Shown piece by piece: positions 7,537-54,703 of a DNA stretch of 64,000 bases. The stretch is from Ascidia mentula. Taxonomy: Eukaryota > Chordata > Ascidiacea > Phlebobranchia > Ascidiidae. How positions within the stretch are numbered: the first letter of the stretch is position 1; every line of letters starts with the position of its first letter. The DNA lies in NCBI GenBank assembly GCA_947561715.1, contig OX387205.1:13459001-13523000 (forward strand), written 5' to 3'. A program made the translations under genes and the position numbers. The notes beneath the pieces are model-generated. The model saw nothing but the letters and a program-made list of their open reading frames with translations. It had not been told where the DNA came from and searched no databases.

Positions 7537-10500
7537 ATGCTATTACACTGTTTTTTATGGTGCTTATGTCTGTATTTTCCCTCCGTCACGATTGGATCAA
7601 ACCTGGCAACTTCATCTGGCACGATTCAACTTGTTCATTCAGATGTTTTAAACGCAAATGAGATTTCGTCTGGAGACATCGCGCCCGCCTACTTTGGCTA
7701 CGACATCGATTTTCAAGGAAGGAGGTTGAGTGGCTTATAATTTAGATACACTTGGAATAAACTCAATGACTCATCAAATAATGTAAACAGGCCAAATTAA
7801 CTGGGTTTGTTATTTAGTATGCAAATGAATTAGGATTTTGACTTCATCGAATTAAATATTAACCACTATAGGAAACTTGAATTCACAACATGTGAAGAAG
7901 TAACGTTTATCTCACATAAAATTTGCTAAACCACACGCTTGTAACATGAAATCGGAGAATATATGCATGTATAACCATCCATGCTTGGTGTCTGTAAGTT
8001 ATAAGCTGACCTTAATGTTATGTGTACCTTGTTTGTTTAATGTACAGACTCTATGTTGGAGCTCCGAAGCGAAGAAATCCGGACAATAGAACACAGTGTC
8101 GAGTTGCAGATCTTCAAAGAAGTGAGCTGAATACAATGAAATTATAGTTCAACTTCATTTAATAATGAGCCAAAATTAAAATTAATGATAAACGCTACAG
8201 TAAACTGACCGCATGTGCCCTTCTTCTATATCTTTGTATACATTCGAGATTGAATTTTGACACATTTACAAGAAACACTATAGCAGTGATTCCCAACCTT
8301 TTTGCGGTTGCGTACCTCTTGGAGGTAAAACAATTTCGACGCGTACCACCTATAGTTGAGTGTTATAAAGTAATCTAGTGGATGAAGTATCGAATATTTT
8401 GAGATCAATCACGATTTTTTAAATTCGAACTGTATCCGTAAATTACGGAACGGTGCTCGCGTACCACCGGGTAGGAAACACCAGCACTTAAACCACGTGT
8501 GTGTTTGTAGATGACGTAAATTGCACAGCCAAAGGCAACATATTGTCATGCCGTGTTTCTCGTTCACTCGACACCTCGTGCAGCTCTGTTGCGCCACCAA
8601 ACGCCGAACCGGGCGACGCGTTCGGACTGAGCGTCAACGTGCTACCGGATGCTACACTAAGCGTAAGTGGATGTGTTAAACGTGGTGCGGACTTCTGCTT
8701 ATAAGGGTCGCCGGGTGTCGGGTTGCAGACGTCACATGTGTTATTTACGTCATAATGTACGGGATGCGAAATACGTCATTTTCAGGAGATACGACGGTCG
8801 TTATCGTCACAGGCATCGACCAACATGAAGTACTTGACCAAATGTGAAATACTAGCAGAAACCTGTTTCTTTTAAAAAGTTTGAATACGGTTAATTTTTT
8901 TGCCCTCATTTTCATTGCCTATAAACGAAGGGAATACCCTTCCGCACAGGAATCATACGTTTGTGTTTCCAACGTTTTGTAAACATTCATTGACTCCAAA
9001 TAAAATATTTCAGACATGTTCCCCAACCAAAGAGATGCCCTGTGGCTTACTTATGTACAGGCCGGGGTTTTGCTACAGAAGTAGAAACAGAGGAACAACT
9101 TGGAAACCAGGACCCAAAACTGCAACGAAAGGTTAGAAATGCGGTCGTTTTTGGTTTGTTCAGCAATAAAATCTCAATAAAGTAGTCATAGATAGAATCA
9201 GGTTTTTTAACTGAAAATATTGGTCGTATCAGGATTTGGGTAGTGTCACAGCTAAAACAATACCTACAAATTTCTAGTGTAAATATATCAAGTTGATGTC
9301 CTTGTGAAAATATGCCAGCCTATAAATGGATAAATATTGCTTTTAAACGTGTAGTCTTTCATTGAGCAAATCAAAAGATTAAAACTTTATATTTCTTTGT
9401 ACAGATTCGTATTGTGAACGGGATTTGGACTTAATATTCGTCTTGGATGGCTCAAGTTCAATTACATCCAAAAATTTCACACTGGTGAAAGATTGGGTCA
9501 AAAATATGGCGGCCTACTTCAGTATAGATACGGGTTTTGCCCGCATTGGGGTCGTCCAGTACTCCCATTACTACCTAAACCGGTAAGTTGTTGTCTGCTG
9601 GAAAGTGTTGCTAACAAAATCAACAGCTCAATTACTACAAAGTTCTTTTGTTCATGCCACGCAATATATTACAGTGCGCCTTTCCGGTCTTGGCGCTGCT
9701 AAAAAGACTGATTTAACATTTTCTAAAAGCACACTAGCTTTCGCGAGTTCCTCTCGCTTCATTGGGTCATGTCATATAACTTGACAATACCACAAGTGAT
9801 AGGTTATACTATTTGGGCAATTTAGCAGTTAAAAACGTGTTTTGTTCCACAGCGGCATTCACCGTCAACCATTCCTAAAGACAGAAGTCAAGCTTGGTTC
9901 CTGTCCAACAGTCGAGTGTTTCAACGTGCGTAAGACACTTTATCGTTTGACATAGAAATAAAATAGCAAATCGGCGATAGAACCATACAACTTGTTCTAT
10001 TCAGTCGTCATTTAAACTTCTCATAACATATGCCAATCTCCACCACACGGTGGCTATATAGAGCTCTATATACATTTTCAATGTAATCCTACAACGGTAG
10101 TGAACATATTTGAGGAAGTTTGTTTTATAAGGACGTGTGACTCGCACTCCTATGGCTTTGTTGGTGTGGTTTCTACTCATCGCATAATTGTACTTAAATA
10201 TATTGTGACAAATTGAGGCGACTGCATTATTATAACCTACATGTCAAAAACGTACATTGTTTTACGTGCAGAGAAGTGTGGATCGCATTCTCCAATTCGG
10301 CCACACAACCTACACAGCCCACGCACTCAACAAAACCGTGACAGATTTTGAAAACTCGGAAAGATTCACGAGAAGCGAAACTTCAAAAGTTCTTATCCTC
10401 CTAACAGACGGCGAGTGAGTAGAAAGTATTAAAATCGCGAATTAATATAGATTTAGTTTGAATAATATAGAATAAACATGACCATGGGTTGATACGAACG

Positions 10501-11344
10501 ATACAAAAAACACACCTAACCTATGCAAGGTAATTTTTTATTTTTGGTTGACATTTTGCCTTCACAATGAAGCACGAAAATAAAACAATTGACTTTAAAC
10601 GCTTCGGGAAAGTCAGGCACAGAAATAGCGCAGCGTTTTGCTGGTTAACGATTTCTATTAACAGCAGTTCGTTTTCAGTTCAACGGACGGAAACCAGTTA
10701 CCAGAGACCGCCGATTACGTCAGATCACGTGGCATAACCACGTTTGCCGTCGGGGTTGGAAAATACAACGAGACCGAACTAAGGGTATGAATAACACAGT
10801 ATAAAAACTACAAATAGTCCACGGAAAACTTGAAACACGATAAACATCAGAGAATTTACATTAAAACAACGTTATTTATGCAGACCATCGCTACTGGAAA
10901 CCAACAGTCAAAGAAAAACGTCTTTACTGTCGACGATTTTTCCGATTTGGAGAAAATCGTAGGACAACTGAAAGCTGCTATTCTTACAGTGACACTTGAA
11001 GGTATAATGTAACCAACAAGTCTTGGCGCAGATTAGGAAGATTGTATACTGGTTGCGTATGAAGCAAAATCATTCCAATACTTGTTCTATGTGTTTGTTT
11101 TATGTACAATTGTACATCAGTTTCACTGCAAAACGTGTAACGTAGTTGACAGTTTTGATGGAACAACTCATAAATCGTATACTCGGACAATTCGCGGTTC
11201 TCCACCTACTTCATTTATTTATATTGGCGCAACGAAGTGTGCTTAAAAGTAACTTGTGTGTTTGCTTCAGGTGGTTCCAACACAGCGGCGTCTTCGTTGG
11301 GATTACAACTGGGAGAAATGGGGTTTTCAATGCAATCTAGCAAG
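7537..11344 (+). CDS. Integrin alpha variable unit 1 (signal peptide, blades 1-2, alphaI domain)
   Basis: N-terminal half of an alphaI-containing integrin alpha chain, 408 codons. Exons: 7537-7724, 8048-8121, 8511-8662, 9014-9131, 9405-9582, 9853-9925, 10272-10414, 10679-10784, 10884-11001, 11271-11344. The ATG opens a hydrophobic signal peptide of about 20 residues. YFGYDIDF and LYVGAP are blade 1 FG-GAP motifs; GDAFG belongs to blade 2; exon 4 has YRPGFCYRS and a TW. The alphaI domain starts at DLIFVLDGSSS, giving MIDAS motif DxSxS; the MIDAS Thr is in TYTAHAL and the MIDAS Asp in LLTDG. FAVGVG and TVDDF follow. VTLEGG keeps the Glu that acts as intrinsic ligand in alphaI integrins. It ends GEMGFSMQSSK in phase 0 at donor GTGTAT. 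Ligand specificity cannot be read. Confidence 0.88.
8284..8484. mobile_element. Probable non-autonomous hAT transposon relic in intron 2 of unit 1
   Basis: It begins CAGTGATTCCCAACCTTTTT, a typical hAT-type end, and finishes with GGTAGGAAACACCAG, a diverged inverted partner (about 9 of 15 positions match). The flanking 8-mers CACTATAG and CACTTAAA agree at 5 of 8 positions, so the target duplication is decayed or doubtful. There is no transposase in its 201 bp. Confidence 0.5.
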
Positions 11345-11383
11345 GTGTATAATCTAACTTGCAGTACTTGGGAATGGTTGCTT

Positions 11384-11456
11384 GGGTGTGTGTGTGTTGT
11401 GTGGGTTTACGTGCTTGTGTGTTTTTTGCTTTCGTGTGTGGCTGTTGTGTGGAATG
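11384..11456 (+). repeat. GT-rich tract after the last exon of unit 1
   Basis: An imperfect GT/GTTT-rich stretch begins about 40 bases after the last donor of unit 1. Similar tracts follow the last exons of units 2 and 3 and precede the constant region at 45151-45203. If the intron is retained, this tract would encode a strongly hydrophobic tail ending in a TAA at 11459-11461. Confidence 0.7.
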
Positions 11457-12192
11457 GTTAAAATAAGCGGAACGCGATTGGCCGCGTAAGATATCAGGTT
11501 AGTCACGTGGCTTAGCTCTGTCTAACGATAGCAACTAAACAATTCATGGAAAGGTGAGTAATTTGATGAATGGGATTCCATCTAAGACCTACGTTAGTCA
11601 CTCGCAACATGGATCGAAGAGCGAGTAAGTTGGTAAGAGATGGTTACACTGTGGTAGGCAATCTCCTTTGTCTTCATCAGGCATTCTTTTACAAAAACCA
11701 ACGCCCGAAACTTATTAAACACTACCGAAAAAGTACATTACCGAAACTTAAATTCAAGTCATTGTTTGAAAAAGGAAGCGGGACATATGGATAAGCAACT
11801 ACTTTTAACCAGCGACCTTGAAGTACATGAACACGTTTACACGTTTTCTGCCAATACAAAAATGTTGAATTCGTGGAAATATTCTGTGAAAAAAAATATC
11901 TCACTTCGCGTCAGCACTTTTAAGCGCACTTCCTTTAAGTTACGTCGGGGAAGTTGCGAAACCAGAAAGTGCAGAATAGCAGAGAAGCGACAGGGGTTTT
12001 CAATTCAGATTGAAGGACGCGGAAGCGATCATTTTTGAGTTAACATATTAGAGTCGAGAGTAGGTAAGGGGATTCAAAATACTGTATATAGAAAGGCTAC
12101 ATGTGACAACGTCGGTGCACATGTTCGTTAAGCGCATTACGAATGATTCAAAATTAAATGTAATACAATCAGTCGGATATTTTTGTGACGAC

Positions 12193-12200
12193 TATATAAA
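12193..12200 (+). promoter_or_regulatory. Candidate TATA box of integrin unit 2
   Basis: TATATAAA lies 173 bases upstream of the ATG at 12366. That distance suits a 5' UTR of about 140 bases. Sequence evidence only. Confidence 0.35.
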
Positions 12201-12365
12201 ACTGAACGTGGGTTCCCAGACGAGTAAGGAAAGGCCTGACTGCTTTAAAAAAAATTTAATTGCAGAATAAAGAAATGGGACTAAGCAGTCGAGATATAGT
12301 TGTGATAATAAGAATTCTTTGTTTTCTATATGTTTTTATATAGGTGTTTGAAGCCATAGCGAGCC

Positions 12366-15300
12366 ATGATGTTGTATAAGGACATTTCCAGGATTATTTG
12401 TATCTTATTTCTTTGCTTGTTTGCTACAATGCAATGTCATAACCTGGCTACCGATTCTAGTATTGTAGCAACCATTAAAGACAGTGGAAATAACGACAAT
12501 ACAACAGCAAACTTTTTCGGGTACAGCATAACATTGGGACCGGATACGTGAGTTCAATTGATCATACATGTTGAATTTGCATGAAATTGTGAGAATTCAA
12601 TGTAAATTTACGGATTTGCTCATAATTGTGAGAATGAAGAGACTGGCTCAAATATTGTCAACATTTTCATGTTTCATGCGAAAAACGTATTGGCAAGAAC
12701 TGATGATCATCAGTTGAAGTCACTGTAAATTGCTATTTAAGTCAGTGTAAATTGCTAATGGTATTTCGGCAATCGGCAATCGGCAACAAATAAACATGCT
12801 GTCACGTATTTTCGACAACCAATCGCATCCAATTCCAACGGCATCAATGCCAAACAGTGCCAGTAACTACGTGATAAATAAAGTAGTTCGATGAGAATTT
12901 GCTTTCGACACAAAACTGACATGTTAAATATTAATTCGTAGATTGGACGTGGGCTCGCCATTAACATCATCCCCGAACAAAACCAAAGGTAACATCCACT
13001 GGCAGTTGAAAATCGATTTCAGGCGAAACGACAGAGAAAATAAATTTGTTACTGGCAAAAACTGAACCGTTGAATAATAACAAATATCACTATTTACTAT
13101 AGATCTTGTTTACAAACCGTCGATACCTTTTTGTAAGATAACATTTACGGTGTGGTGGCCATTTATAGGCACATAACATTAACTCTCCGGAAACGGCAAT
13201 AAATAAGTTGTTTATCAGAGGGTAAAATTTTGAGCTGCCCCACAAGAAAATTGTTCCAACATCAATCTTCAACAACATTTTGCACCGACATCACCCCACC
13301 GTTCGTGCAACCTGGGGACGCTTTCGGCCAGACTGTTCAAAACTCAATTTCCGACTTGGTGGTACGTTTGCGAAGTTTTTTGTTGTTGTTTAATGTTTGA
13401 TGAAATTTGCGGGAAAAGATTGTGGATAGGAAAACCAGCTTCAGCGTTTTAAGTGGAGGAAAAAGCAACGCCTTTTCATTATGTAAATTAAAAATGGATA
13501 AAATTGAACCCTATAGGTGCTACTCAACAACCGCAACTTCGCAACTGGCGTTCGAAAAGGGTCGATTTCGGAACGAAAATATTGAATGTTATTTAACAAC
13601 CGTTCATTGGTTTATATAATTATTAAGATTTTTTTCCAAGCATTGTGAAAGTGTGGCGTTGTTATCAAAATTGGATTCGTTTGCAGACCTGCTCTGCAAC
13701 TAAGAAGCAGGAATGTACACAGGTCAATTACAACCCAGGTTACTGCTACAGAAGTCTAGATAATGGATCCAGCTGGCAAGCGGACCCGAAAACATCACGT
13801 GCAGGTTGACTTAGGTTTCTGGTATTTCCGCGGGATTTTGTTCCCGCGCAATAACCGTCGATGACGCATTCAACGAATGAATTTTTCCTCGCACATGAAG
13901 CAACTGAATCTTACATTGTGTCCACGATACAACTTTGTAAACACACTTTGTTTCGCATCGCATTCTATCAAATTAATGTACTAACGTAAGGACGCATGAT
14001 CAAGTCCACCTTTTTTAACACCGGAATATAACTTACTTTGTAAAACTTTGGGACCAACACTATAGTCCATACAACTGCTCTTAAATATATTTAAAATAAA
14101 ATTTAAACGTTTCGATTGTGCCTTACAATCACTATCAATGCGAAACGCAGGCGACCGGACAAGCAGTTATATGGGTAATATTGTTTATCCTAATTATTTG
14201 AACGTTTTAAACAGATTGCTCGCAGAAGTTGGACATAATGTTTGTGTTGGATGGCTCGGGCTCCATCGGAAAGGAAAACTTCGAAATTGTGAAAAACTGG
14301 ACAATCGAACTTGCTTCGTTTTTTAACATTGCAACCCAGGCCGCCCAGATTGGAGTTGTTCAATATTCTTATTACAACAGTAGAAAGTAAACCCATCTTC
14401 AAGTATTTTTTTATCTTAACGTTGGTTTTGTGCAAGATACATTCTGCACAAAAGCGCACGTTTGCAGTGAAACTATTCGAATTTAAGATAGATTACATCA
14501 ATGTGGTGAAGGGGATTATAAACATTCTACCGGTGCAAATGCAATACAAACTGTTGATTTTGTGAAATTTTGCAGGCCTAGGTTAAACCAAATCAAGACG
14601 GAAGTGGCCCTGGGTGAATGCAGAAACCAACGATGTTTCCGCGTAAGTATTAAAAGCAACTGACAGGTCTTGGCAGGCGCTTCACAGGGACCAGTTTCGG
14701 AACAACAAAGAACTTTAGGAAATTGTAGGCGTGTTGGCGTGTATAGACTGCAAGCATATTCTACATACCCCGCAGCTACCCTTGGTATACAAGCTTAGAT
14801 ATAATGAACTTCACAAATAACTGGTATAAGCTAAAATTTATGGATACAATTATGAGCGCCTTGTTTTGGACTTTTGCCTTCGATTTTTTTGAAATTAAAT
14901 TGCATCAAAATCTGCGCCAAGTTGTGAATCCAACATTGCGACCAGTTATGTATACATGTGTTAACATGGACTGTCAGAAACGTGCTATAGTTTGCAATTC
15001 ACAAATTGTTTTAGAAAAAGGTATCCAGAATCAAACTGTTCGCATCGCAAACGTTCACAGCCCATGCGATCAACAAAACGGTTTCGGATTTTAAAACTTC
15101 AATACGTTTCTTCAGTTCGTTGACATCAAAAGTGATGATTCTTCTCACAGATGGAAAGTGAGTAGAGTTGAATAATCCAAATGTTTATTAAATGGGAAAA
15201 ATATACTTTGAACTTTTACTTCTTGGTAAACAAGTATTTTGTACTTGATCTGAGAAGTTGTTTACCATAGATAACAAGAATTCATCCAGATGGCGTTTAC

Positions 15301-16479
15301 AGAGCCGAGTCTAAAAACAATTTGCACGCTCTTTAAGCATATGAAATGCGACACCAACTAAAATTCAATTTCATGTTATTTCGAAACAGATCAAGCGACC
15401 CTGAGTATATTGCACCTTCAGCAGATTACGCCAGGTCTTACGGCATCACTACCTTCGCTATCGGAGTCGGTGACAAAATTGAAGAGTCCGAATTACAGGT
15501 GTGTTTCACGCCAGGTTCAATCCGTGTAAAAGGTTGGAAGCAAAAGTATCTCTGTTACAAGAAATAGTTCGCGAGCGAGCTACCGGCTTTGAACTGAGAA
15601 AAACCAACAGACCATAACGGGCGAGCTACGGGGCTCAAAAATGAGCTCTGAGCTCATGCAAAAAGTGTAAAATGTGCATCACAGCAAAACGTCTGTTGGA
15701 GTTAATATTTATTTTAAATTGTATTTTATGTTATAGTTGTAGAGTAAAATTTAACGTAATAATTACCGTAAAAATGATAAAATTTAGGGAATTAATAAAA
15801 TTTCAGGTTAGTTATTGCACGTTTTCAACCCATCCTAGACATTATATCATCCGTGCGAGTCGATTTTAAAACCTTTTTCTTTTTATTTGCAGGTCATTGC
15901 TAACGGAGGAAGCAGTAACAAGCGAGTTTATAACGTTGTTGATTTCCAAAAGCTGCAAACTATTGTAGGGGAACTTAAAAGCGAAATATTGAAACTGGCC
16001 TTAGAAGGTGAGCTTCAAGATTTAATAGAGTAAAAAACTATAAATCAAAGGATTGAAATTATAGCACAAGCAGACATTTTAAGTGTAAAAACCCTCACTG
16101 GAAAAAAGCTGGGAACACCACGTACGATAACGACGACCTTAAGGTTTACGTTGTTGCAAATGTTTTTATAATAAGTCTTTTGCCACAGCAAAGTTGACAG
16201 GCAGTTACACTGCAAGACAATTAACGTTAGGTCATCGATAACGCTTTTTCAGTTCTTGCGGAAGTGACTTTAATAATCTATCATGACTACAATGCCTCGT
16301 CTTTGATTAAACCTTGCGAACTTGTTTAGATTAGCTTGAACCGAAAAACAGCGGACAATACTGAAAAAATCAGAACACTTTTTCCAACATTTTGCATTGC
16401 AGGAGGGGGAAATGCCCTGTCGGTCTTCTACGGACAAGAAATGGGGGAAACAGGATTCTCAATTGCACAAAGCAATGCG
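12366..16479 (+). CDS. Integrin alpha variable unit 2 (signal peptide, blades 1-2, alphaI domain)
   Basis: 391 codons, same design as unit 1. Exons: 12366-12547, 12942-12988, 13219-13361, 13687-13804, 14215-14386, 14576-14642, 15015-15157, 15390-15498, 15893-16007, 16403-16479; all phases agree. The signal peptide is followed by HNLATDSS; blade 1 has FFGYSI and LDVGSP (a GAP variant). Exon 2 is the shortest of all units (47 bases). Blade 2 has GDAFGQTV and YNPGYCYRS. The alphaI domain has LDIMFVLDGSGS (MIDAS), a Cys pair in GECRNQRCFR, TFTAHAI, ILLTDG and FAIGVG. LALEGG keeps the intrinsic-ligand Glu. It ends GETGFSIAQSNA in phase 0 at donor GTAACT. Reading on into the intron adds a short hydrophobic tail ending in a TGA at about 16537. 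Confidence 0.87.
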
Positions 16480-16509
16480 GTAACTTTTACGTTAGTTGAT
16501 GAAAGCGCA

Positions 16510-16560
16510 GTGTTGGCGTTTTTGTGTGTGTTGGTGTGATTGAATGTGGGCGTGAGTTTG
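16510..16560 (+). repeat. GT-rich tract after the last exon of unit 2
   Basis: An imperfect GT-rich stretch starts about 30 bases after the last donor of unit 2, in the same relative place as the tracts after units 1 and 3. Confidence 0.6.
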
Positions 16561-17292
16561 GAAGTTGATGACACGTCGTTTGCGGACGGTGTGCGGTAAG
16601 TTTACAGTGGAAAGATCAAGAAATTTGGAAAATAGAAGAAAACGACACAGGTGAGACACCTCATAGTCATCCTCTTACGTCAGCATCAGTTTAAAATTAG
16701 TTGATTTACAATTAAACAAAACACCACAGCCACTCAGAGCTCGTATTTGAAGAAGTACAATCTTTTTGCAGACACGATGACTATTCTTAAAACGGGAGTT
16801 TTGCAAACACAAAACTTTGGACGTAACCTTCCTGTATATAAGGTTCAGAGGCTTCGCAGTCCAGGCATTGTAGCCTACATGGATCAGCCACTATAATGCG
16901 AGAGCTTGGATCGCCAAAAATAAAGTTTCTGCGCAAGGGGGCGATTCTGCCTTGTTATGCATGTTTAAGTATATGTACCAAAGTATGTTTTGCTTTCAGT
17001 GATTATCTGGCCATTCAGCTACAAACTAAACATACGTTATATCATATAGCATTGGCAACAACTTCTATTCAGTGTGGAAACGGCTACAACTTTTTTGTCA
17101 AGCTTTCACATGTGCTCGTATCAAAAGCATGACAAAAAGTTTTCGCTATGGTGTTTGTGTATTAGAACAAAGGAACCATGTGTGTTATGTTGCACTTCCG
17201 ATATGACGAGGTTTTATCGCTTTAAAGGTATACAAATACACCACAACTAACTCGTCGAAACAAAATGGTTTATATTACTTTAAATACTACGA

Positions 17293-26286: not shown

Positions 26287-26324
26287 GTAGGAGGGTTAAA
26301 AAACCGGAGCTTACTGTTTTTTTT

Positions 26325-26400
26325 GTGAATGTATGTGTGTGTGTGCGTGCGCGCGTGTATGTTTTGATAATGAATGTGTGAAATGTGTTGTGATGAATGT
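26325..26400 (+). repeat. GT-rich tract after the last exon of unit 3
   Basis: A (GT)n/(GC)n-rich stretch with GTGTGTGTGTGCGTGCGCGC begins about 40 bases after the last donor of unit 3, as in units 1 and 2. Confidence 0.75.
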
Positions 26401-26861
26401 CAGTACGCGCGTTGGCGTTTGATAATAACGCCAAAAACATTTGAAAAATGTCGTCACGTTGGGGCGATTTAGCTGGAAGTTTCATAATAAAGAAAAACGT
26501 GTCACGAGACGTTGATACGACGCCGAAGAACTCGGAAAAGTAGGGGCTATGCAGACAGGTATGCAAATGAGAACATTTAAACCAACAACAATCATTTGGT
26601 TTCCACTTTTATGTTTTGTTTTAGTTAACCTCCAACTTCAGGTGTACATACGGAATTCCTGTTTTGAGTCCAAAACAGCATCACTGAATAACTTTGCGTC
26701 TGTTGCTGACATGATGCAAGTGTGCAGTTAAACTCAAACAGGTGTTTCGCAAAAGAAGTGGCATCGAGAAAAAAGGTAGTTTTCAGGAATAAAACCTTAA
26801 TTTTTTAGTCTGTTGCAGACGATGAGGGTTTTCTACTTCATGTTTATCAATAAACTTTAAG

Positions 26862-28211: not shown

Positions 28212-28360
28212 AATTTGTGTATAAGCTGCAGACAGATGGCCACTGTTTCGGCCTAAAAGGTCTCATCAGTGCAGCTGGTGTGACTATCAGACGACTTTGC
28301 TGACCAAACGGCCTTTTAGGTCGAAACAGTGGCCATCTGTCTGCAGCTTATACACAAATT
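28212..28360. repeat. Fold-back element with 49-base arms
   Basis: Arms at 28212-28260 and 28312-28360 differ by one mismatch over 49 bases, with a 51-base loop containing CTCATCAGTGCAGCTG. Part-copies occur at 6718-6768, about 32456-32495 and 57066-57150. The high arm identity suggests recent movement or conversion. Confidence 0.88.
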
Positions 28361-37500: not shown

Positions 37501-37878
37501 TGATCGCGGGTTCGGAAAAGAGAGTGTTTACCGTTGCAAGCTTCGACGATCTGTTCGACATCGTTCAACGCCTGCAGTTGGATATTCAAATATTGGAAGG
37601 TTCTGCACCAAAGATTTACTAAAACTTGACGCATTTGTAACTCAATAAGTATTCGGGGTATTATTGAAGTGTCGTACGTTGGACGTTCCTATTGCGTAGC
37701 TGTACTTTCGGGTTTTTTGAATTATAATCCAAATGTCTATATTAATACAACATTCGCTAAAAAGGATGCATGCAGAAAAGATAAAGTCCACTGTTGTTTT
37801 CTTGCAGGCGAATCGAGCACAGATCAAAACAGTCGTCTGACTCAATGTCAAGCAGGCACCTCAGCTTCATTCGGGAAG
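34527..37878 (+). CDS. Integrin alpha variable unit 5 (signal peptide, blades 1-2, alphaI domain)
   Basis: 393 codons, nine exons: 34527-34696, 34756-34823, 35017-35177, 35467-35584, 35746-35888, 36173-36289, 36747-36883, 37406-37599, 37808-37878. Signal peptide ending TVRS, then mature FNLAVN. Blade 1 has YFGQSV and LFAGAPQ; blade 2 has GSFGMTI and GGCWIYH. The alphaI domain has IDLMFVLDGSFS (MIDAS), TFTAHAI, VLVTDG, FAVGVG. QILEGE keeps the intrinsic-ligand Glu. It ends TQCQAGTSASFGK in phase 0 at GTAAGG. It shares the intron layout of units 4 and 6 and lacks the alphaI Cys pair of units 1-3. The spacing to unit 6 is 1.04 kb, too small for a separate 9 kb constant region. Confidence 0.88.
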
Positions 37879-38861: not shown

Positions 38862-38921
38862 TTTTGGGTTTCAACAGTTTTATGAAGCTTAAAAATAGTT
38901 TTACTTTTAGCATGCACAAGA

Positions 38922-41900: not shown

Positions 41901-42637
41901 GCTCACTACGTCATCGAACAGCTAGTGACCATAGCTGGTGGAAAACGTGACAATGTGATTACCGTTGACAACTTTGACGATTTAACCAAAATCGTCTCGC
42001 AAGTTCAACGCGGGATACAAGTAATGGAAGGTGAGCAACTATTTGTCATAAAAATTCAAAAAGCTCTTCTGGCAACAATATTGAATTGTCTCGACGTTTC
42101 GATTGTTATACAACAGCCGCCACCATGATGTAAATGTACAAATGACGTGATATTTGTTTAATGGTCAATGCAGTATGACCAAATATATTGTTTCAATTAT
42201 ATCATAAAAAGCGAAGTAAGTTTTCTCGACTAAGTGGTCAGTTTCAATAAAAATTAGTTTATCCTAAAACCAGAAAAAAAACTCCCACAGAATCAATGCT
42301 GTAAAGTTTGGGGATACTAAAACATAACTCTTTTGCAAATCTCAATAAGTATATTGTAGTCCAATTAACCTGTGTTAAACATTTTTGAAACAAACTCCTT
42401 AATGGAAACAAATCAGCCACTTGGGAACATAACTCACAGTTTTGTAAATCTTTAAGACCACAGTTACGTGGGCTATGTTGTTTGTCTTGAAAATTAGCCA
42501 CAATCTTGATATGACGAACTAGAAAGCAGAATAAAACAGTGGTAACCAACCTTCAATGTACAGGGGGAACCACAGATCCTGGTGTCACGAATGAATTGAT
42601 GCAGTGCCAGGCCGGCATCTCTTCCACTGTGGACAAG
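38922..42637 (+). CDS. Integrin alpha variable unit 6 (signal peptide, blades 1-2, alphaI domain)
   Basis: 448 codons, nine exons: 38922-39142, 39227-39369, 39901-40076, 40305-40443, 40658-40800, 41016-41132, 41361-41497, 41837-42030, 42564-42637. Signal peptide then mature FNVAKT. Blade 1 has FFGYDL and VSVGAPT; exon 2 is the longest of the set (143 bases). Exon 4 carries an RGDS at 40389-40400. The alphaI domain has IDLMFVLDGSHS (MIDAS), TYTAHAINK, ILLTDG and FAVGV followed by AH instead of G. QVMEGG keeps the intrinsic-ligand Glu. It ends MQCQAGISSTVDK in phase 0 at GTAAAT. It is the unit nearest the constant region (2.7 kb) and would form a conventional integrin alpha gene with it. Confidence 0.88.
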
Positions 42638-43825
42638 GTAAATGCAATTAGCACGACAACGACAAAAATTAGGACAAACACTAATGCAGAAATGTAACAA
42701 CAATAAATTGCTGTTTAGATAAGTAGTGAATTTTGGTTTTCCACATGTAAAAGATTTTCCTATTAGCAATCTCGTTACAATAGTCAAACTGCACTACTAT
42801 TCGAAGGGAGTTTAAAACAGGGAGATACACTAAAAACTAATTTATCCACACAGAATAAAAAAAATACCAAGGAAAAGCAAAGAAAGAGCCTTGTTTCCTA
42901 AAAAAAATCTGCTTGTCGATTTAAACCCACGCATCTCGTAAATTGCAAAAGGAAACTCGTCAAACATGACGTTTTCTGCGTTTTGTCCAAATTGCTGAAA
43001 ACCCGATTGAGTTTGGCGAATTGCCGAACATGGTGACCTTACACGCGCTGGTGTTCCAAGAAACAGAATTAACAAAGAAATCCTGCGTTGTAACTCAAAA
43101 TGCAAAATAGAGCATTTGAAAGAGTCGGAGCATGGTTTTACCACAACATCTTGTTCAACGCCATTCATTTATTTCTCCGAAATTGTGCCTGTGTTTGCGT
43201 TGCAGAAAAGCAATAGAAAACAGTTTTCAGAAAAGCAATAGCTAGAAAACTACCAGATGTAGTACCTAATAAAGATTCAATTGAAATAGCGTATAGGCTA
43301 TTATAATTGAAACTAAATGAGTAGGTAATACATCAGACCAATATGACTTGTGCCTGGAGATTGCGCCTTGTCAAGTAACTTTGATCACGCAAGCAGTGCT
43401 TCCCAAAAATGGACATTGTGCTTTTTTCTTGTAAACAATTGTTATTTCGGGCACACATTGCGCTTGTGCATAATGTTTTGCGACCAGACCGTGAGTTAGC
43501 GCATCTACACGCTCGAAAGCATTAACCAGAAACACGGCAAGGTTTTGAGTGACGAAACGCGAACTACGGCGCAGAAGCCGTACGTCATTTCCGGTTTCGT
43601 GCGTGCAAACGCGCCATTGTTGTGTGTGCGCGCGCTAACCAGCATCAGACGGTTGACACTGCTGTTGTGTACGCAATGTTCATTTGTTATGTGGTGCTGG
43701 ACAGACGATACAGTCGACTTCAGGCATTGTGATGATAACTTTGCCACAGATGGACGTACAACATTTTAGGTAAGGAGACCTTTTTGTTTTTGGATGTTGC
43801 TTTGCAGTAGCAGGTTCAGGTTGCG

Positions 43826-43845
43826 TATAATAATAATAATAATAA
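43826..43845 (+). repeat. (TAA)n microsatellite
   Basis: About six TAA repeats in a row. No functional meaning is apparent. Confidence 0.8.
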
Positions 43846-45016
43846 CTATGCATTTGGTTGATATCATGCACATATTTGGTAAGTTTGTCTGATGTGTTTG
43901 GTAACGCAATAGCCGGTACAGACTAAAGTAATCTGTTAATTAAAAGATATGCAGTTAAAATATACGAGGAGTTGCAAACAATCTTTTTCACTCCAAAACA
44001 AATATATTTGCATGCTGAAGCGAAATAGCATTTGTGGAGCGTTATTTAATCCAACAAAAAAAAACGTAAGCGTTAAACGTCAATGCTATGCCATAGCCTA
44101 ATGTGTGGTTCCTTTTGTGGATTGCTACATTTACTTGTACGTTCTGTATGTCATTATTAAGTTCATATTTCAAGGTGATTTTCCACAGGTATAACTGTGT
44201 CGCCTTTGTGTAGCAATCCTACGTGTTTAGCGCTTTGTTTTGGATTACGCATTTGTTCTGTGTATATTTCCGGCAGTGATTCACCACAATTTCGCCACCG
44301 AAGCGCAATCTCTCTTTCAACAAATGTAGGCTAATCTCAACATAACACGTGTTGCTGATAAGCCACAATAGCCCAGCAATCACAAGATAAATCGCGGTGC
44401 TGTCGTAATACGAAACAGCAACAAGGTTCAGTCTACCGGGAAATTTTAACGCTTTGCCGCACCCCGCACCCTGAGTAATGGAGTAGACCTTCGGGTGAAC
44501 TTAGGGGATAACAATATCTGACGTAATATGTACGCAAGTATGGCGGGAAATAGGACCTAGCGTGTGTAAAGTTTAAGCGGAAGAACTGACAATAAACTTT
44601 GGTTGCGTGGCACTAAATTGTGTTGGTCAAGTTTTGGTGGATTTGCTCTGACGGATAAATCAAATATCACTGCCATTCTGTGCTAAACTAAGCTTCAGCA
44701 AGCCCTATATTCTGACTATTTTAATCTTAATATTTAGCGGAAGAGTCATTTACAGCTAAAAAGCTTTTTTAAGTTACAGTTTCGCGTTATATCGAGTTGT
44801 TTTTTTCAACTTTTTTCCGCACCGTTTGTTTCATGGAATCAAAATTCGTGATATTCCAACGCCTTTCTTGTCTACAGGTCACATCGGCGAGCGATAAACC
44901 GGATATGACGTCGCAGGACAGAGGGTGAAGCCAAAGCTTGCTGTATTTGGTCAGGCTGGTAGCATTAGCTAACGTACACGCATAAATTCCCGGCTTTTGT
45001 CGGGTTTATGCGTTGA

Positions 45017-45037
45017 TACTAACGATATTTCTTGCAG
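45017..45037 (+). promoter_or_regulatory. Strong orphan 3' splice site upstream of the constant region
   Basis: A perfect branch-site-like TACTAAC at 45017-45023 is followed by TTTCTTGCAG ending at 45037. The next bases read GT TCA in the phase used by all last variable exons, but no good donor or GFS-like peptide follows. It may be the remains of a lost unit's last exon or a decoy site. Confidence 0.45.
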
Positions 45038-45150
45038 GTTCAATGCTGGAAACTAAGCAGATTTATTTTGTGACGATTTCGCGAAATACACGAAACGAGT
45101 GGTTTTACTATTTGTTTAGGGTTTTTAGGCCAAACGCGACGCGAATTGCG

Positions 45151-45203
45151 ATTGTGTGTGATTCGTATGTGTGTGTGCGTGTTGTGTGTGTGAGTGTGCC
45201 TGT
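45151..45203 (+). repeat. GT-rich tract upstream of the constant region
   Basis: GTGTGTG runs mixed with a few other bases end 127 bases before the first constant exon. They resemble the tracts that follow the last exons of units 1-3. Confidence 0.75.
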
Positions 45204-45329
45204 TAATATGCTTGTGAAATTAACTAATTTATGTAGTGAATAAATGTGTGTAGTTGCCTAACTAACAAGATAAAGATATGCAGCTAAATATTCTCCCACT
45301 AACATTATTTACCTTTGGTACTTCAACAG

Positions 45330-48300
45330 AGCGGGCGACTTGTGCTGGGAACAGTTGGTGCATACGACTGGTCAGGAACATTTACTGTGTACAGTTCAAC
45401 CTCTGATCTGGTGCCTGATATTCCTGATTTCGATCAAGTGAGATCAGTTCTTCCTCTCAGGCCCAAGGAGTCCTATTTAGGTAAATGTAATAAGATGCTT
45501 GATGAATGCGTTGCTTAATAAACATATGATTAGCGTCCTACCGCTAACGCAAATTTGGCAGTTTGAATATTTGTGCGCAATATGCTTTACATATGAAGAC
45601 TTATTTGGCGCAAGATACATTCCCCACAACCCCCTTTTCATTGATCTATATTTGAAATAAGAGTGTATTTAAAATTATTTCTATTGCTAAGATTTTAAAT
45701 AAGTTTGAGAGTGACTAAAAACAGGAAAATTTTTCCCACCACACAATTTACATAATAATTTTACACGCAATTTGCACTGCCTTGACACGAGGGACACAAT
45801 AGGCGAGGCGCTGAAAAAAACCTTGACTTGTATCGGTTTCATGCAAATCGTCCTTTGTCTTACGAAGGTTATTCGGTGACCACCGGCTACTATGAAGGAG
45901 CAGCTATCGGTGAATACATTGCTGGAGGCGCCCCACGCTACCTTATGGAAGGAGCGGTAAGTCTATGATATTAAAGCTTTACAACTTGAAACATATTTTC
46001 ATGACTATTTCTATGTTGTAAACATGACTGTAATAATTTCAATAATTTTTTTTTCAATAAAGGTTATATATACGTACAAATCTGTCGACAGATAACTCAT
46101 GCTTGTATAATTTGTATATAATACGAACACGAGCAATATAATATATGTATTTAAAAGATTTTTATTTGTAGTGAATACTTATACATGTCTAGCAGGAAAA
46201 TTTGGTTCTGTAAAAAAAAAGTATTTTTGTGATCAAGTGTAATGGCCTTTTTGACGTTCTTATATGAATGGTGAAAGACGTTACGATATGACGACATGCG
46301 CTCATTTAATTAGGGATTTGTATTAAGAACACGACTGTCATATGTTGATATTCTGTCTTGTAAAGAGTTTTATACCAAATTGTTAACAAAAATACAGACT
46401 TGCATGGAAGCAGGTCCCGATTCTCGTTTTTTCGTTGAATAGCTATGAGTAGACAACGATGATTACCAAATAAGGAAGTTATCGCTAAAGCGCCAAGCAT
46501 TTGTCCCGCGTTAACCCTAGAAGTGCGGAAGCCACAAAGATAGCTTGTAGAGTATCTTTGTGCACATTAGTGAAGTCATCGTAAGTGCAAGAGTATATGA
46601 TGGGTCAACGTGTGTTTTTCTAAATATTGCTAAATTGACGAAGGTTAAAAAGGTAACCTTGAATTAATGACCAATCGATGAAATTGATGTGCGACCTTTA
46701 AGTTGATGTTGTGGATTATATTGGTTGTTGAAAGTTCTGACTTAATTGACACCTAACACAAGGCACCTTTCGTTGGAGGAAGTTTTCCACAAACTAAGTG
46801 CTGGCTGATTTTCGATGTCTATTGTTTAAAGTTCTACGAAATTCCAGAACTCCATTTATCCGGAAATAAACGAGACAAACCCTTACAGCAATCATTGTGC
46901 ATCCAGGTGGTTGTGTATCGTCCCAACACCTTGGATAATAACAAAAACTTCACCAACGCTCACACCATACGACCCCCGTACGATGCACAAACCAACAGTC
47001 GACAACTTGGAAGTTACTTTGGAGGTTCAATCCTGTCTGCAGACCTCAACGGAGATGGTGATGATGAGTTGCTGGTCGGTGCGCCATTGTTTATTGGCAG
47101 CAACTACGATGAAGGAAGGGTGTTTGTGTACGTGTCTCAAGGACCAAACTCGGTTGCTGCTTGGGTGAGTAAAACTTTTTGGCAGAATTTTACTTTAGTG
47201 AGTGGGGATACATTTAGAAGTACATAAAAAATTATTTAAAAATAGAAAATTTTGCAATCATGCCCTGTTCAATTTGGTCGTTAATTGGATTTTGCAAAAT
47301 TGCAAATTTTTTTTACAAAAAGCTTTACTATTTGCCTAATACTCTGGATTTTTGTAAAGCCAATTACTGACTAGCATATCAATTGCGCAGACGTTTCACA
47401 CACACACCTGGTTCATTATCGGTGCACTGATGATTTCTTTGCTTTTTTTAACTTTTGTTATAATCTCAACACATTTGTGTTCATAAGCCAAAATTATGCG
47501 AAAGAAAAAAAAACCTAATGGTAATAAAACGCTTTTGAAAGGGAAGTTTAATGACGTCGAACAAGCTAATGTCCGGTGTACAGTAAAGCAATTATCACAA
47601 CAACCGACTAGAATAGCCCAAGTTGGCGCAAAGGAACGATACTGTGAAGCGGTGCAAGATAACGTAAACAAAAACAAACTAAAACATCGTAAACTGCAGG
47701 CGGACCCCAGCTACAAACCCCTTGAGCTGATCGGAGAACAGCGGGCTGGCGGGAGGTTTGGAACAGCAATGGCCGTAGCTGGAGATTTAAATGACGATGG
47801 TTTCAATGACGTCATCATCGGTGCCCCGCTCACTGATGGCGACCGTGGGGCAATTTTTGTTTATCACGGGAGCGCAAGCGGAGTTGATACTTCCTTGAAA
47901 CAGGTTGGTTTCGGGCAGGAAGGTTGTTTGTTTATATATAGATCTATTAGGCCCTGATGGCTCAGTATGTTAATGGTGCGACATGTGACCTATACTACAC
48001 AGAAAGTTTTCGCTTTCCATGAGGCAGGCACCAATTTATCATTGCTTGTAGCTTTTTGACTGTTTTGTGCCCCTCTATGGTGGAGTAAGCGTGAAAAAAC
48101 GAAACCCTTGTTTCAAAAAACAAATACCAATTTTGAGCACAGCTAAACAGCTTTCATCATTGCGCAGAAACTGGGCGTTGATTTGGTTCTTACAAAACAA
48201 GTTTCATATTAACAGGTCATCTTGGCATCCTCAATGCAAGGCAGCGACTTGAAATACTTCGGGCAATCTCTGCAAGGTGGAGTTGATCTCGATGGTAACA

Positions 48301-51300
48301 AATATCCCGATGTGGCAGTCGGCGCCCCAAAAAGTGACACAGTCGTTATTTTCAGGTGTATTTAATCATAACATTTTGCCAATCTGGAACCCAACCCTTA
48401 ATTTTTGTCACATGCCATAATGACATAGGCATTGTATATGATATTCAGTGAATTATAGCAGAATAAAGTTTGAAGTCTTTCTCACTTGTAACACAAACAA
48501 GTGCTTTCTGTGATACGTAACATGGAAAGGGAGATTTCATACAACTGTTACAAGTTGTCACACAGCGTAAAATGGTCTTTTAAAACACGACCGTACACTT
48601 TGATGATGAAAAACTAACAAAGCAATTGTTTGTGGCAGGACACGCCCTGTTGTGAAGATCACCAGTCGTCTCACGTACAGCACGGCCAGCATAGATATCT
48701 TGGTATGCTTCAACACACCGAACAGACAATGTGTCAATATCACTTCGTGCCTGACCTACACTGGCAAATCCGTGGAATTAAACTTACGTGAGTGTCGCTT
48801 ATTCTATTATTGAGAATTAATATTGAGAGTGAAAACGAAGACCCTTTATAAAAAAAGGTATAAAAGTTTAAATGTGATTACAGAAATCGCAGCATTTATA
48901 AAACATGGCAATATCCTATCCCAGCAATATCCTATCAGACATATAAGCGATAAGAGCGTGTTCCAAATTATTTCCACAACACCAAGTATTGTCTTTGAAA
49001 ACCGAAACTGTGACACATTGTTTCGTTGCTTTACACAGAGCTGCTCTACAACACGACAATCGACACAACGCTAAACCGCATCGAGTTCCGCGCTGCTCCA
49101 AATGCAACCACTGGTGAATTCGTGGACAGTGGAAGCGTCAATCTGACCAAGGACACAGAGAAATGCTGGACCCGCATTATATACGTTAAAGTAATTTTCC
49201 ATTTTTTTTAATAAAACGAGGACATGGGCATTGTACATGCACCTATCCGAAAACCAGTCTAAGGCTTATGAGAAATTGGTTATGTAATGCATAAGGAAGT
49301 AAAAAATAAACAATGTTTGTTGTTGCTGAAAGCAATTTACAGCACAGACATTTTTAACAAAAAAGGTTAACAGATTTATGAAACGGAACCAATGTTTTTG
49401 GTCTAAATTTCACTTTCCATTGCAGCAAAATATCCGTGATTACACTGCACCTTTGCCAGCATCCATGAGTTACGATTTGACTGAAGCCCACAAAGCGAAA
49501 GCTCTTTCGTCTGTTCGCGATCCGTAAGTTGCATTCTTAAGCCTGATAACTGGATTTCCCAACTATGCTTTCTATCGGTAAAATTCAAAGGTCAAGTTCG
49601 ACCCTAACATTTTCAAAACATTTTTTTTATCTACATACAACAACCAAACTTATTAATTGCAGGAAAATTTCTGCGTTGTTTGACCCCGTTCAAACTAAAA
49701 AATACATTACTCAATAATGTTTCAGGTCCATCCCAAATGTTGCCAGTACTAAAACCGAGTTTTCAAAGAAATGTGGACCTGACAAAGTCTGTTCTTTCGA
49801 TCTACAAATCGATGCCGGAATTACTCTTCCCAGCAACATCATGTTGTGAGCAAACATATTATAATGACATGTTTTGTAAAGGACCGATCTTGACTAAAAA
49901 CTATACAACAAAACCAAACCATTGACTTTAATTTTAGAAAACAGCTAATTTTTTGTGACATTGTACTATCGCCAATGTAACGGTATGGACGATTTAACTT
50001 AAAATGTGCACGCAGACCCGGTACGACAACAGACTTAAGCAAAAACGGCACCACTCTAGTGGTCACCCAAGAAACGTACATCACACCGGTTATAGTGAGG
50101 GTAAACATCAGCAACCACGGCGAAAACGCGTTCGATACCCGGATCCATATCAACTACACTTCGGCACTCAGTTGGACTGTGGTAAGTGTTTGGTGCGAAA
50201 TAACTAAAAAGATGTTCAACCAAATTTTCAAACTGCTTTTAACGCTAGGGCTTGAATAATGTTCCAAGTTGTTCCACTACACAATATGTTTTAGCTGTAA
50301 ACAAACTTACAAACATGCTTCGGTGAATTGAATAGCTTTGTGTAATCATACAATGGAAGAATGCTTCTTTACCAATAAGTGTAGTTATAATACGTACATG
50401 GGTTACATTTAGACACATTGCGACGTCATGCATACCTTAGTCCAGTGAAACTTACTAATACGACAATGAATCATTGACAGATGGAGGAAATCCAGAGTTC
50501 TAACAACCATCTGCCTTGTGTGCAAGAACTCACTGATCTCACGAGACCGAGCGGCAAAGTACTGAGATACGTCCACAACACCACACTCGGAAGTGTCATG
50601 AGACAGAACGACTGGGTAAGACTTGGTGTCGTGTGGTCCCAACTCGTCACTTAATCGATGCTTGTACAGTTTTTACGTCATGTTTCAATAACTAGCGCAA
50701 GATAAATACAAGACGATTCTACAAATGTCGAATAAAAGAAACATTTTTGCCAGCTCATAGAGCGGCATTTCCTGTTTAGGCGAATGCATACGCATCGTTT
50801 AGAGTCCCGGGGTGTTGCAATGTATCTATTTGTGATAAAACAAGAATAAAATAAGCAAAGACTCTCCAAAAAAATTATTTCTTGTTTACAACACTTGCTT
50901 TTTCTGTTTCAATTTTCCGGTAAGGGACAAAAGTTTGACCTTTTTACTTCCGCGTATTTAAATATTGCTACAAACAACAAGTGTGTTTAACTGTAACAAT
51001 TTATTTCAGTGCGCCTTCGTGTTGAAGTTTTCAACCAACAGTCTTAAACAGCTGGGCGACATTAGCCACGTGGACGTATCCATCCTTGCTACTACGTGAG
51101 TACTTTAAATCATTAGACACCAAAGAAGGGTTGTGTAAAACTAAGCGTATTTTGGTCGCATCTATAAACGAAGTTGTTGCGTGGAAACATGCGTACTTGC
51201 TGGACACACCATTTTAAGCCGGGGTTTTCTTGCTGCGAAATCACAACAACAAATGGTTCAACACTGTTCCATGTACTATCGTAATCACTTTTATAGGAAA

Positions 51301-54300
51301 CACTAGCAGGATTTCATCCCACTGCTCTGTTTACACACCATAAAACCGGTTGCACTCGAAAAGCTGGGTTAGTTGTGTAGTAAGTTTTGACTAACTAATC
51401 TTATTTTGCAGAGCAATCGGACATGAGAACGACACAAACAAAATGAACAATCAATTTAGCACAACACACCCTGTGTTGTACACATCTGCCACTGAGCTTG
51501 CCAAGTAAGTATCAAAATTTATCATCGGTTTACAATAAAATGCATTTTTAAATACGTTTTGTCAACTTCCTGTTTCAAATGAAAAATATTTGGCTAATAT
51601 TCGTATCACAAATATTTTAAATGGCAAAACAACAATACAATGAAATTCAATATGTTTCACGAGACAAAATGATAGGGAATTGCTAACTGGAGCAATTAAA
51701 CCGCCAACACCAGTAGGAGTTTATAAGCGGACATCTTACTTTCTAGGAAGTTGGTGCCTGACGAGGCTCTATTCAATTTCACCAGCACAAACGACACGGT
51801 GGTGTCGGTACAACAAGTTGGTATTGGCAGTGTCGACCTTACAATTCAATACGAGGTAGGGTGGTATGACGTATTGTTTCGTCACCGGAAGTTACGTTGA
51901 CGTCTATTTCCGAGTCACGAGCCAGCATCGCGTCATAGCGTGCGGTCGACTATCAATTAACACAATCATCGTTCAAAGTTGATTAACGAGTCGTAAAGTG
52001 TGAGTAGGTGTATGGATGATATCATTTTAAACAGCGCCTTGAAACCTCTTTCAGTGCAACTCCCCTTAATGCGTTCTTCAAGAAAAAAGAACTTTTATCA
52101 TAGGCACTCTGTAATCGCCGTTTGTCTGTATCTTACTAGTTATAATGCATAAAGTAACCACATAGCTAAACCGTTATTAGCTAAAACATAAACAATAAAA
52201 ATTAGGTACTTCGGATTTTTAGAACGAATGTTGTTTACAGGTGAAAGGACTTGGGTTTGCAACGATTCCAGCATCTACTCTCGCTTTAAGTTTTCCGAGC
52301 AAGCTCAATAATTACACACATCTCCTATACCCGTTTAAAGTTGACTGTATTCCATCGGTAGGTGTTTATAATAATAAAATCATTTAAATTGGCTATTAAA
52401 TTGGGCTAATACAAGCAAATCCTCAACAAAAGCTATCACCAGAAATAAAAAGCTTTTGCTATTAAGAGTGATACTGATTATGCCTAACTGCAGGAAACAT
52501 AGATAGATATTAGGTAAAACATCGCAGCAAATGACAGGTTTTCGTCATTAAACTTGTAAAACAAATCAGATAAAATCAAAGTCTTAACTACCCATAAGAC
52601 TGTTTGAAGATTCCGGTAATTATTCAAAGAGTTATTTTGCTCTCGCTTCAGATATCTGCGCGGTGCACATGCGAACAAACGTTGGTAAATCCCTACCAAC
52701 TTTTACTTGATTCACCGAACGTCAACAACAGCAACGGACCCAATGTTACCATGTATCCCTACCCGATACCGTTTACCCAACCAGTGGTTTTTGTAAGTAA
52801 TCTTATGTTTTGAACTATATCTACATAACTAAGTAGTTACAAATTGCCCTACTTGTAAAACACGGTGCTTTTTACCGTAACCTCATTTTGAACCAAACAA
52901 CTGTAAAAATAAACAATATTAAAACACTAAAACCTCAACAACAAAATACATAAGAATTTTACTTTTTCAATTTGTTCCAGGATTGCTCAGAAAATTCCGC
53001 AGACAAGAAATATTGTGGAAAAATAATGTGCGACATTTTTAATCTCGGAGAAGTGGACAAGGTCACCTTCACTGCCAAATTCCGCCTCTGGACCAAAGCT
53101 TTCAACTTTGAGGTTTGCAATGAAATTGTGAAATTAAAATGACCAGATTGTCTCCTTCAGGCAATGCGATAAAAACGAGAAACACAATGCATATGTTTTC
53201 ACTTTATATTTTGATGTAAATGTTTAAGTTGGTAAACGTGTGTGGTTTAATCAAAAGTCGTTGGTAAATAATTCAGCATTGTTGTGATTCATGCAGAACC
53301 TGAATGACACGGTCTTCAAGTCTTCCATTACACACGACACAACACCGTCCGAACTCATTGTCTTTCCAGATGGTTCGCGAAAAAGCGTTATCACCAAACC
53401 GGTGAGTGTCACATATTCGAGTTTTTTTTTTTTTATTATTATTGCAACAACTACAACAACGACAGAGAAAAGAGAAACAAAACACGAGCTCAAGAAACAT
53501 ACGCTAATACACAAAGCAATATTAAATTACAAAGTATTCCATTTCAATTTAAATTCATTCACTTTATTAGTTCTTAATGCAGTTTTTTTTTCTGCTGCTC
53601 TAACTTGCTGTACTTGCCGTCGAAACATAGTAAAACAGGGTTGCACTTTGGCCACTTTACATTTGTAAACACAAAATCTTGCTATTAGTAAAATTAAATT
53701 GATTAGTTTTTCCTGGTTCGTACTTACATTTACTGTACCAAAAAGTTTGAGTTGATCGGTGATAACATTTTTTTTCCATTCATTTGGCATCTAGCCATGC
53801 ATCTTCCCAAAAATTCTATTCGAGTAGTACCCCGAAAGTATTAAAAAGGTACCAGGGCGACATCGTGCGGTAAATGTAAAACACTATGTTTTAATATCTG
53901 TGTTCAGTCCTCGTATTGCGTTTCAGTTACAACAAATCAAAGGTTTCAGTAGCCCTGTATTATCGAAGTGCATTAAAAACAGCCGCCGATCGCACCATTG
54001 TCAAACATGTAAACTTGAGATATTTCTGCGTAGATCGACTTTCCTGTGAAGAAATTCTTCCCGGCTGTCCCGGTCGTGCCCCCTACGACACCCCTGTGGG
54101 TTTTCATTGTGGCTGCTATTTCCGGCCTTCTTCTTCTCATCATCATTGTTATCATCATGTGGAAGGTAAAGAAATATTTTCCTACCGTGTGAGACGCACT
54201 TGTAAAGAATCACTATAGTGTTGAGACGCACGAATTATAGATTGTCAGGTCGCTGAAGGCTGACTTCATTTCGTATTTGCCTGCATTCCATCACCCCAAA

Positions 54301-54703
54301 AATCCTACTTTCTTCGTTGAAATCGTTACGTGATGTATAATTGAACTACGACCAAAAACTCATCATGGTAAATAAGTATCAATTTTTGGCGCTAGAGAGC
54401 CATGCGTCAGACAAAGCACGCTAGTGTGCAGAACAACAATAAATTTCAATACAACCCTTTGGTCTGCTATTGGAGCGCTTGCTGAGGTGCAGCAAGTCGC
54501 CTAAATCCGACCCACCCAAATTCAAACCGAACTAAACACTGAACTAAAATCTGTATTTATTTCTGCAATATTTCTGTTTTCTTGTTCAGACTGGATTCTT
54601 CAAGAGCAAATACGCCGACATGAAGCAAGAAGCTTTAGAATGGAACGAAGCAAACACAAACGGGGCAATGGACCAGTCCACGGAAGGCATGCTGGAGAAC
54701 TGA
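45330..54703 (+). CDS. Integrin alpha constant region (blades 3-7, thigh, calf, membrane segment, tail)
   Basis: C-terminal half of an integrin alpha chain, 896 residues and stop. Exons: 45330-45480, 45868-45956, 46907-47164, 47700-47903, 48216-48355, 48639-48787, 49039-49190, 49426-49523, 49726-49845, 50016-50181, 50481-50615, 51010-51095, 51412-51504, 51747-51855, 52241-52357, 52652-52792, 52981-53112, 53297-53401, 54034-54165, 54590-54703; all phases agree. It opens in phase 0 with SGRLVLGTVGAYDWSG (blade 3). Three Ca2+ loops follow: DLNGDGDDEL, DLNDDGFNDV, DLDGNKYPDV, each near a GAP motif, as in blades 5-7 of alphaI integrins. FRTRPVVKI begins the thigh. The membrane segment is in 54034-54165 and is followed by WKTGFFKSKY, a variant of the GFFKR motif, and a tail of about 37 residues. 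It has no ATG or signal peptide of its own and must be joined to an upstream unit. Confidence 0.92.

Follow-up and report, generated by a model that had tools for sequence, protein, structure and literature searches.

The stretch analysed here, 64,000 nucleotides of the ascidian Ascidia mentula (assembly GCA_947561715.1, contig OX387205.1, positions 13,459,001 to 13,523,000 of the forward strand; hereafter the window), holds a cluster of six half-genes that each encode the ligand-binding head of an integrin alpha chain, followed by a single constant region that encodes the rest of such a chain. We propose that this locus stands at the centre of a split receptor family, in which the units would supply the variable halves of integrin alpha chains: the last exon of a unit stops one strand into blade 3 of the propeller, at a phase-0 donor, from which it would be spliced to the exon at 45330; stalk, membrane segment, tail and whatever is missing of the propeller would come from the exons that start there. 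On the features of the DNA we put at about even the chance that transcripts of the units are joined by splicing to the constant exon that they would share, be it in cis or in trans. Integrin alpha genes have, to our knowledge, been treated as one gene, one chain.

Six variable units and one constant region

A first-pass annotation had described six in-frame integrin units, each with its own ATG and leader, and one downstream region common to them all; rebuilding the exons upheld this to the base. Boundaries were picked by eye and then checked by script for splice sites and frames; GT and AG flank every intron, 51 in the unit models and 19 in the constant-region model, and every frame is open. 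In the list below each unit runs from its ATG to the last base of its final exon, which in all six models is in phase 0 with GT next; the 20-exon, open-frame model of the constant region likewise starts in phase 0.

7537..11344, plus strand: unit 1, 10 exons; donor AAG/gtgtat; VWA E 3e-38
12366..16479, plus strand: unit 2, 10 exons; donor GCG/gtaact
21615..26286, plus strand: unit 3, 10 exons; donor ACG/gtagga
29178..33224, plus strand: unit 4, 9 exons; donor AAG/gtaagt; blade-1 GAP motif lost
34527..37878, plus strand: unit 5, 9 exons; donor AAG/gtaagg
38922..42637, plus strand: unit 6, 9 exons; donor AAG/gtaaat; adjoins the constant region
42638..45329, plus strand: stretch from unit 6 to the constant region, 2692 bases
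45330..54703, plus strand: the constant region in 20 exons, encoding the remainder of blade 3, blades 4-7, three Ig-like stalk domains, transmembrane segment and short tail

Units 1-6 encode 408, 389, 421, 414, 393 and 448 residues without a stop. Each opens with a hydrophobic leader, followed by blades 1-2, the alphaI domain and the first strand of blade 3, and Pfam finds VWA in all six (E 4e-31 to 3e-38). The constant region codes for 896 residues, including the transmembrane segment and a WKTGFFKSKY tail; Pfam recognises FG-GAP and integrin Ig-like domains 1-3 in it, and solved integrin alpha chains match it. Propeller, three Ig-like stalk domains, transmembrane segment and GFF-type tail are thus complete in a unit plus the constant part, and not in a unit alone. 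The metal-site residues of the alphaI domain are invariant, with DxSxS in six of six cluster units and in all six distinct dispersed units modelled (see below). The junction is consistent with the integrin fold: the chain typed from unit 3 and the constant region aligns with integrin alphaX across it, with a one-residue gap beside the junction. Units 4-6 have in common an extra cysteine pair (one before the alphaI domain, the other in the last exon), a pattern absent from units 1-3, and the intron positions of their alphaI domains differ from those of units 1-3.

We found no separate constant region for units 1-5 between the units. Constant-region proteins searched against the gaps between units and against the unit introns gave nothing (best E 4.4), and the constant-region search between and upstream of the units gave no match at E 0.01. 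A DNA search of the genome with 42638..45329 matched that stretch only.

Three further alphaI integrin genes, in which head and stalk stand together, lie downstream of the cluster; tail exons were seen for the first two, and the third was modelled in part. The introns at their head/stalk junctions measure 218, 165 and 178 bases, as against the 2692 bases that follow unit 6. Only the N-terminal part of the first falls in the window:

59931..64000, plus strand: first of the three downstream genes, N-terminal part (the seventh unit); its constant part begins at 64068, beyond the window

By eye, downstream genes 7 and 8 are near-identical at the start of the alphaI domain (61575-61752 and 73380-73557 in window numbering) and less so around it, which resembles the outcome of gene conversion.

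Half-genes elsewhere on the chromosome

Searching the genome (196 Mb) first with units 3 and 5 and then with one of the dispersed units, and following the best-scored candidates, we found at least seven more units at five places on the same chromosome contig:

L051: units A1 and A2
L053: unit B and its copy B'
L055: unit D
L056, reverse strand: unit E
L057, reverse strand: unit F

The terminal donors of these units are on C73, near 8.292, 8.297, 8.869, 8.874, 9.769, 15.383 and 15.395 Mb. Units D and F stand head to head, about 7 kb apart. A1, A2 and D could be modelled from the ATG to a phase-0 last exon with no stop; the models of B (without exon 1) and of E and F (from exon 4 onward) are partial. 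The phase-0 terminal donor is kept in every dispersed unit that was read. The counts below refer to 12 separated units, namely units 1-6 (U1-U6) and A1, A2, B, D, E and F; B' is outside the 12 and served for comparison with B and, scored alongside it, in an initial count of TG-rich tracts. Unit-like matches at C73:1507042, C69:10650392, C70:6.77-6.88 Mb and C73:15389382 were left out of the unit counts, and a further one, G (at L058), was dropped from all counts, being by eye a different VWA protein with its own stop. At three internal donors of the D and F models GC stands in place of GT (L055 544, L055 1841 and L057 reverse 3394).

No constant region was found 3' of the dispersed units in sequence reaching 2.8 kb beyond F, 4.7 kb beyond E, 5.5 kb beyond D, 10.6 kb beyond B and 10.9 kb beyond A2 (best E 0.7). 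The dispersed units are 5' pieces that have kept their donor and have no constant region in the stretches searched, within which there may be a short local 3' exon. Half-genes that keep a terminal donor at other places must be either trans-spliced or able to stand alone, and both exceed a cluster of six units joined in cis only.

The tree, built from the alphaI part only (15 rows, unrooted with a midpoint root, two of 12 inner branches starred; unit 9 was entered from exon 4 onward, as its exons 2-3 did not join in frame), sets the 12 separated units against the three downstream genes on a branch of 100/100. Units 4-6 form a clade (100/99), and five of the six dispersed units group with them, and not with units 1-3, at 82/80 (not starred). 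The six cluster units are not grouped apart from the dispersed ones, although the forks concerned are weak (82/80, not starred). Unit E is on a long branch. Protein identity among units is about 30-50%.

These units do not look like decaying relics, a reading that we consider unlikely given the open frames and the signs of selection. Units 1-5 have no stop in 2025 codons, where a simulated 0.05 substitutions per site gives a mean of 13 and a minimum of 6 (100 runs), so that neutral decay is unlikely. Between B and B' the nonsynonymous divergence (dN, 0.013) is far below the synonymous (dS, 0.063), which indicates that unit B has been under purifying selection since the duplication; for more distant unit pairs dN is 0.48-0.66 and dS is saturated or nearly so. 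At L053 (C73:8866001-8876000) B and B' are tandem copies of 5.5 kb, each followed, tail to tail, by what by eye is a PDCD5-like gene; their divergence is patchy, perhaps through gene conversion.

Structural detail is kept as well. FG is present in nine, and G[AS]P in eight, of the nine separated units modelled from exon 1 (unit 4 being the loss). By eye, the last exon carries [EQ]xG in 12/12 separated units, and from its invariant glycine to the donor there are seven residues in ten of the 12 (eight in unit 2, nine in B) and in all three downstream genes. This kept spacing does not obviously answer to any need of a truncated protein, and the last-exon strand, which by homology to vertebrate integrins would belong to blade 3, has no obvious use without the constant half. 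The number of cysteines after residue 25 is even in every modelled head (B, E and F being partial, and unit 9 left out for its broken model), and the constant ectodomain has 14.

Terminal donors, TG-rich tracts and the proposed joining of heads to the stalk

Scored as splice donors, the terminal sites in the 12 separated units are on a par with 70 internal donors (p 0.72); nine of them (U1-3, A1, A2, B, D, E and F) lie above random GTs (p 3e-6). Beyond the donor there is commonly a TG-rich tract, which we scored over the 150 bases that follow. In the first count, over 80 donors, the top eight scores were all terminal (U1, U3, U2, the two B copies, U4, A1 and A2). Scores of at least 9 are reached in nine of the 12 separated units (U1 24, U2 12, U3 17, U4 9, A1 9, A2 9, B 10, D 27, F 28), whereas 102 internal introns score at most 7 and the junction introns of the downstream genes 2, 1 and 1 (p 4e-7). 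This distribution across donors indicates that the tract tends to occur where a head is not immediately followed by a stalk. Over 164 kb, seven TG tracts lie on the plus strand and six on the minus strand. Four of the seven are at units 1-3 and at the constant acceptor:

11345..11552, plus strand: TG-rich tract after the unit 1 donor, score 24; ends at a second, strong donor-like site, GGAAAG/GTGAGT
16480..16650, plus strand: TG-rich tract behind the unit 2 donor (score 12), in which the best second donor-like site is TGTGCG/GTAAGT at 16595
26287..26558, plus strand: TG-rich tract behind the unit 3 donor (score 17), with AGACAG/GTATGC as second donor-like site
45031..45340, plus strand: TG-rich tract before the constant acceptor

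The last of these might include an alternative terminal exon: it has an acceptor-like site (by eye, at about 45042), a frame open as far as 45243 and an AATAAA motif (45239). A second donor-like site (best score at least 7.9) is found 100-300 bases past the terminal donor in ten of the 12 units, U6 and D being without it; this is an enrichment both over sequence after internal donors (p 7e-5) and over random places (p 2e-4). Membrane-tail coding conserved in the TG tract was considered and rejected: by eye, read-through is hydrophobic in units 1, D and E, and stops come almost at once in A1, A2 and B.

We suggest that the TG-rich tracts after the donors and before the constant acceptor may mark or promote joining. 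Units 1-6 could be joined to the constant exon by long-range cis-splicing or by trans-splicing. The dispersed units lie far from the constant region, so that for them joining would be possible in trans alone, with the constant region as the acceptor RNA and each unit as a donor RNA. In its fullest form this proposal holds that at least 12 alphaI-head half-genes, cluster and dispersed alike, are trans-joined to one stalk, rather like protein-coding spliced leaders, with the TG tracts as guides; we put this forward tentatively, as a possibility on the doubtful side, and its weight is a share of the even chance already given to joining in cis or trans, not an addition to it.

Using as query the Ciona spliced-leader sequence, followed by GT and with at most one mismatch, we found 1070 + 1253 = 2323 places genome-wide, as against 0 + 1 for the reversed control, a strong sign that the host appears to run spliced-leader trans-splicing. 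The total of 2323 seems high; some of the places listed form a tandem spliced-leader array at G000:C1:15239664-15292838, in which the usual spacing is about 720 bases. In the 80 bases that precede the ATG, the best acceptor-like sites are strong in U2 (10.5), U4 (9.7) and U6 (8.0) and score 6.6-8.8 in the three downstream genes; they are middling in U1, A2, D and U5, and U3 and A1 have none. Over the 12 starts these sites differ from those at other ATGs (p 0.015), which hints at spliced-leader addition at the 5' ends of some units.

Several observations weigh against joining. The donors of U1, U2, A1 and A2 score no better than the lower quarter of internal ones, and the TG score is low in E (6), U5 (4) and U6 (0). 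Intact units without a nearby constant region exist, and 45330 is therefore not obligatory for a unit. A 3' end of a unit's own is one possible meaning of the second donor-like site, and the segment after the terminal donor of B and B' has diverged like an intron (4.1%, compared with 4.7% for introns and 2.4% for exons). Pairing of the post-donor sequence with the constant intron, as an RNA docking signal, had to be given up: its energies were below those of internal introns, yet equally low with a control intron, so that base composition alone had been measured. For the cluster there is the further difficulty that units have 8-9 internal introns, so that a cis transcript from unit 1 must skip the internal acceptors of every later unit, 8-9 for each intervening unit.

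The main alternative is that units 1-5 and the dispersed units are independent genes, each with a 3' end of its own and each coding for a short secreted alphaI-head protein, that TG tract and second donor are part of a 3' untranslated region, and that only unit 6 gives a full integrin. We regard this as unlikely, but as a reading to be taken seriously. It would account for the intact units at five other places with no constant region in the 2.8-10.9 kb downstream, and for the fact that units 1-4 have a TG tract and a second donor-like site, like most dispersed units; unit 6 is without both and fits well. In the cases read by eye, read-through past the terminal donor reaches a stop in 1 to 38 codons, and AATAAA lies about 130 bases past the donor of unit D. 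That motif, however, occurs here at 1.36 per kb, so that its nearness to unit ends is weak evidence, and we have set aside the idea that it marks polyadenylation signals of the units' own. The read-through tails have by eye no clear common motif, and it is difficult to see in a truncated secreted head why the terminal donors should be kept as strongly as internal ones, together with the glycine-to-donor spacing and the propeller motifs.

Joining could also be confined to the cluster, with six promoters, cis-splicing only and the dispersed units uninvolved, strictly as in UGT1A or the clustered protocadherins. This would suit the layout, the phase and the failure to find a constant region between the units, but we consider it improbable: the dispersed units are on the cluster side of the 100/100 branch, and they share with the cluster its donors and, for the most part, its TG tracts; the tree does not set the six cluster units apart, weak though its forks are (82/80); and many internal acceptors would have to be skipped. 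It is far less probable still that the assembly has dropped constant regions belonging to units 1-5. Tandem paralogs can collapse, but units about 30-50% identical in protein are too diverged for that; there is no N in the window, no constant exon is detectable in the gaps, which span 1.0 to 5.1 kb, and the half-gene form recurs elsewhere. On balance, the joining of heads to the constant exon is favoured by the conservation of donors, strand and spacing, by the presence of one stalk only and by the common tract.

Comparable systems, neighbouring sequence and significance

UGT1A and the clustered protocadherins are built from variable first exons and a set of common exons, and the first-pass annotation likened the present locus to them. 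The likeness holds in that there are several variable 5' units, one common 3' region and the same joining phase; it fails in that the variable units of those loci are single exons without internal acceptors, whereas here they have 9-10 exons and related half-genes are dispersed at a distance. A comparable choice at a terminal donor is made between secreted and membrane IgM, where the donor is either read through or spliced to the membrane-coding part, but there is one C region per gene in that case and many heads here. The trans-spliced coding genes C. elegans eri-6/7 and Drosophila mod(mdg4) resemble our proposal in that protein-coding halves come from separate pre-mRNAs, and differ from it in having no dispersed family of ligand-binding heads on one stalk.

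Within the tunicates, Ciona has eight alphaI integrins, Ci_alpha1-8, likewise alphaI integrin alpha chains, some of them close in the genome; Ci_alpha5-8 are tabulated as genes of 26-27 exons, and the parts of that account available to us mention no common constant region or half-gene (Ewan et al. 2005, PMC1145181). Spliced-leader trans-splicing in Ciona joins a 5' piece of another RNA to an unpaired acceptor; that leader is short and non-coding, whereas the 5' piece here would be about 400 receptor codons (PMC2760879). A literature search gave no integrin locus of this layout in the titles or abstract openings among the matches listed, with subscription papers little covered, and within a limited search no use of spliced-leader-type machinery to assemble a diverse receptor turned up. 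The layout would thus be a variation on loci with variable units and a constant region; trans-splicing, if true, would stand further from known systems.

Some neighbouring and genome-wide observations may be added. Positions 1-5390 of the window hold an upstream cadherin-type gene, by eye a protocadherin (repeats, a transmembrane segment and a long tail to about 5390). An inverted repeat at 28225-28360, recognised by eye and recurring in L051 and L010, is probably a small transposon. Integrin constant-region matches at G000:C52:15083398, 15178569, 15275466 and 15371336, about 95-97 kb apart, suggest a large segment that is repeated. Two weak matches to glycosyl hydrolase family 6 occur in the genome; with the spliced-leader matches and the alphaI integrins they suggest an ascidian host in which spliced-leader trans-splicing would operate.

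As regards its meaning for the biology of these animals, one stalk appears to serve several ligand-binding heads at this locus, so that an invertebrate chordate would have a germline-encoded means of varying receptor specificity with one signalling part kept. If the dispersed heads are trans-joined, machinery of the spliced-leader type would have been put to assembling a diverse receptor; if the heads stand alone, there would instead be a family of integrin heads without stalks.

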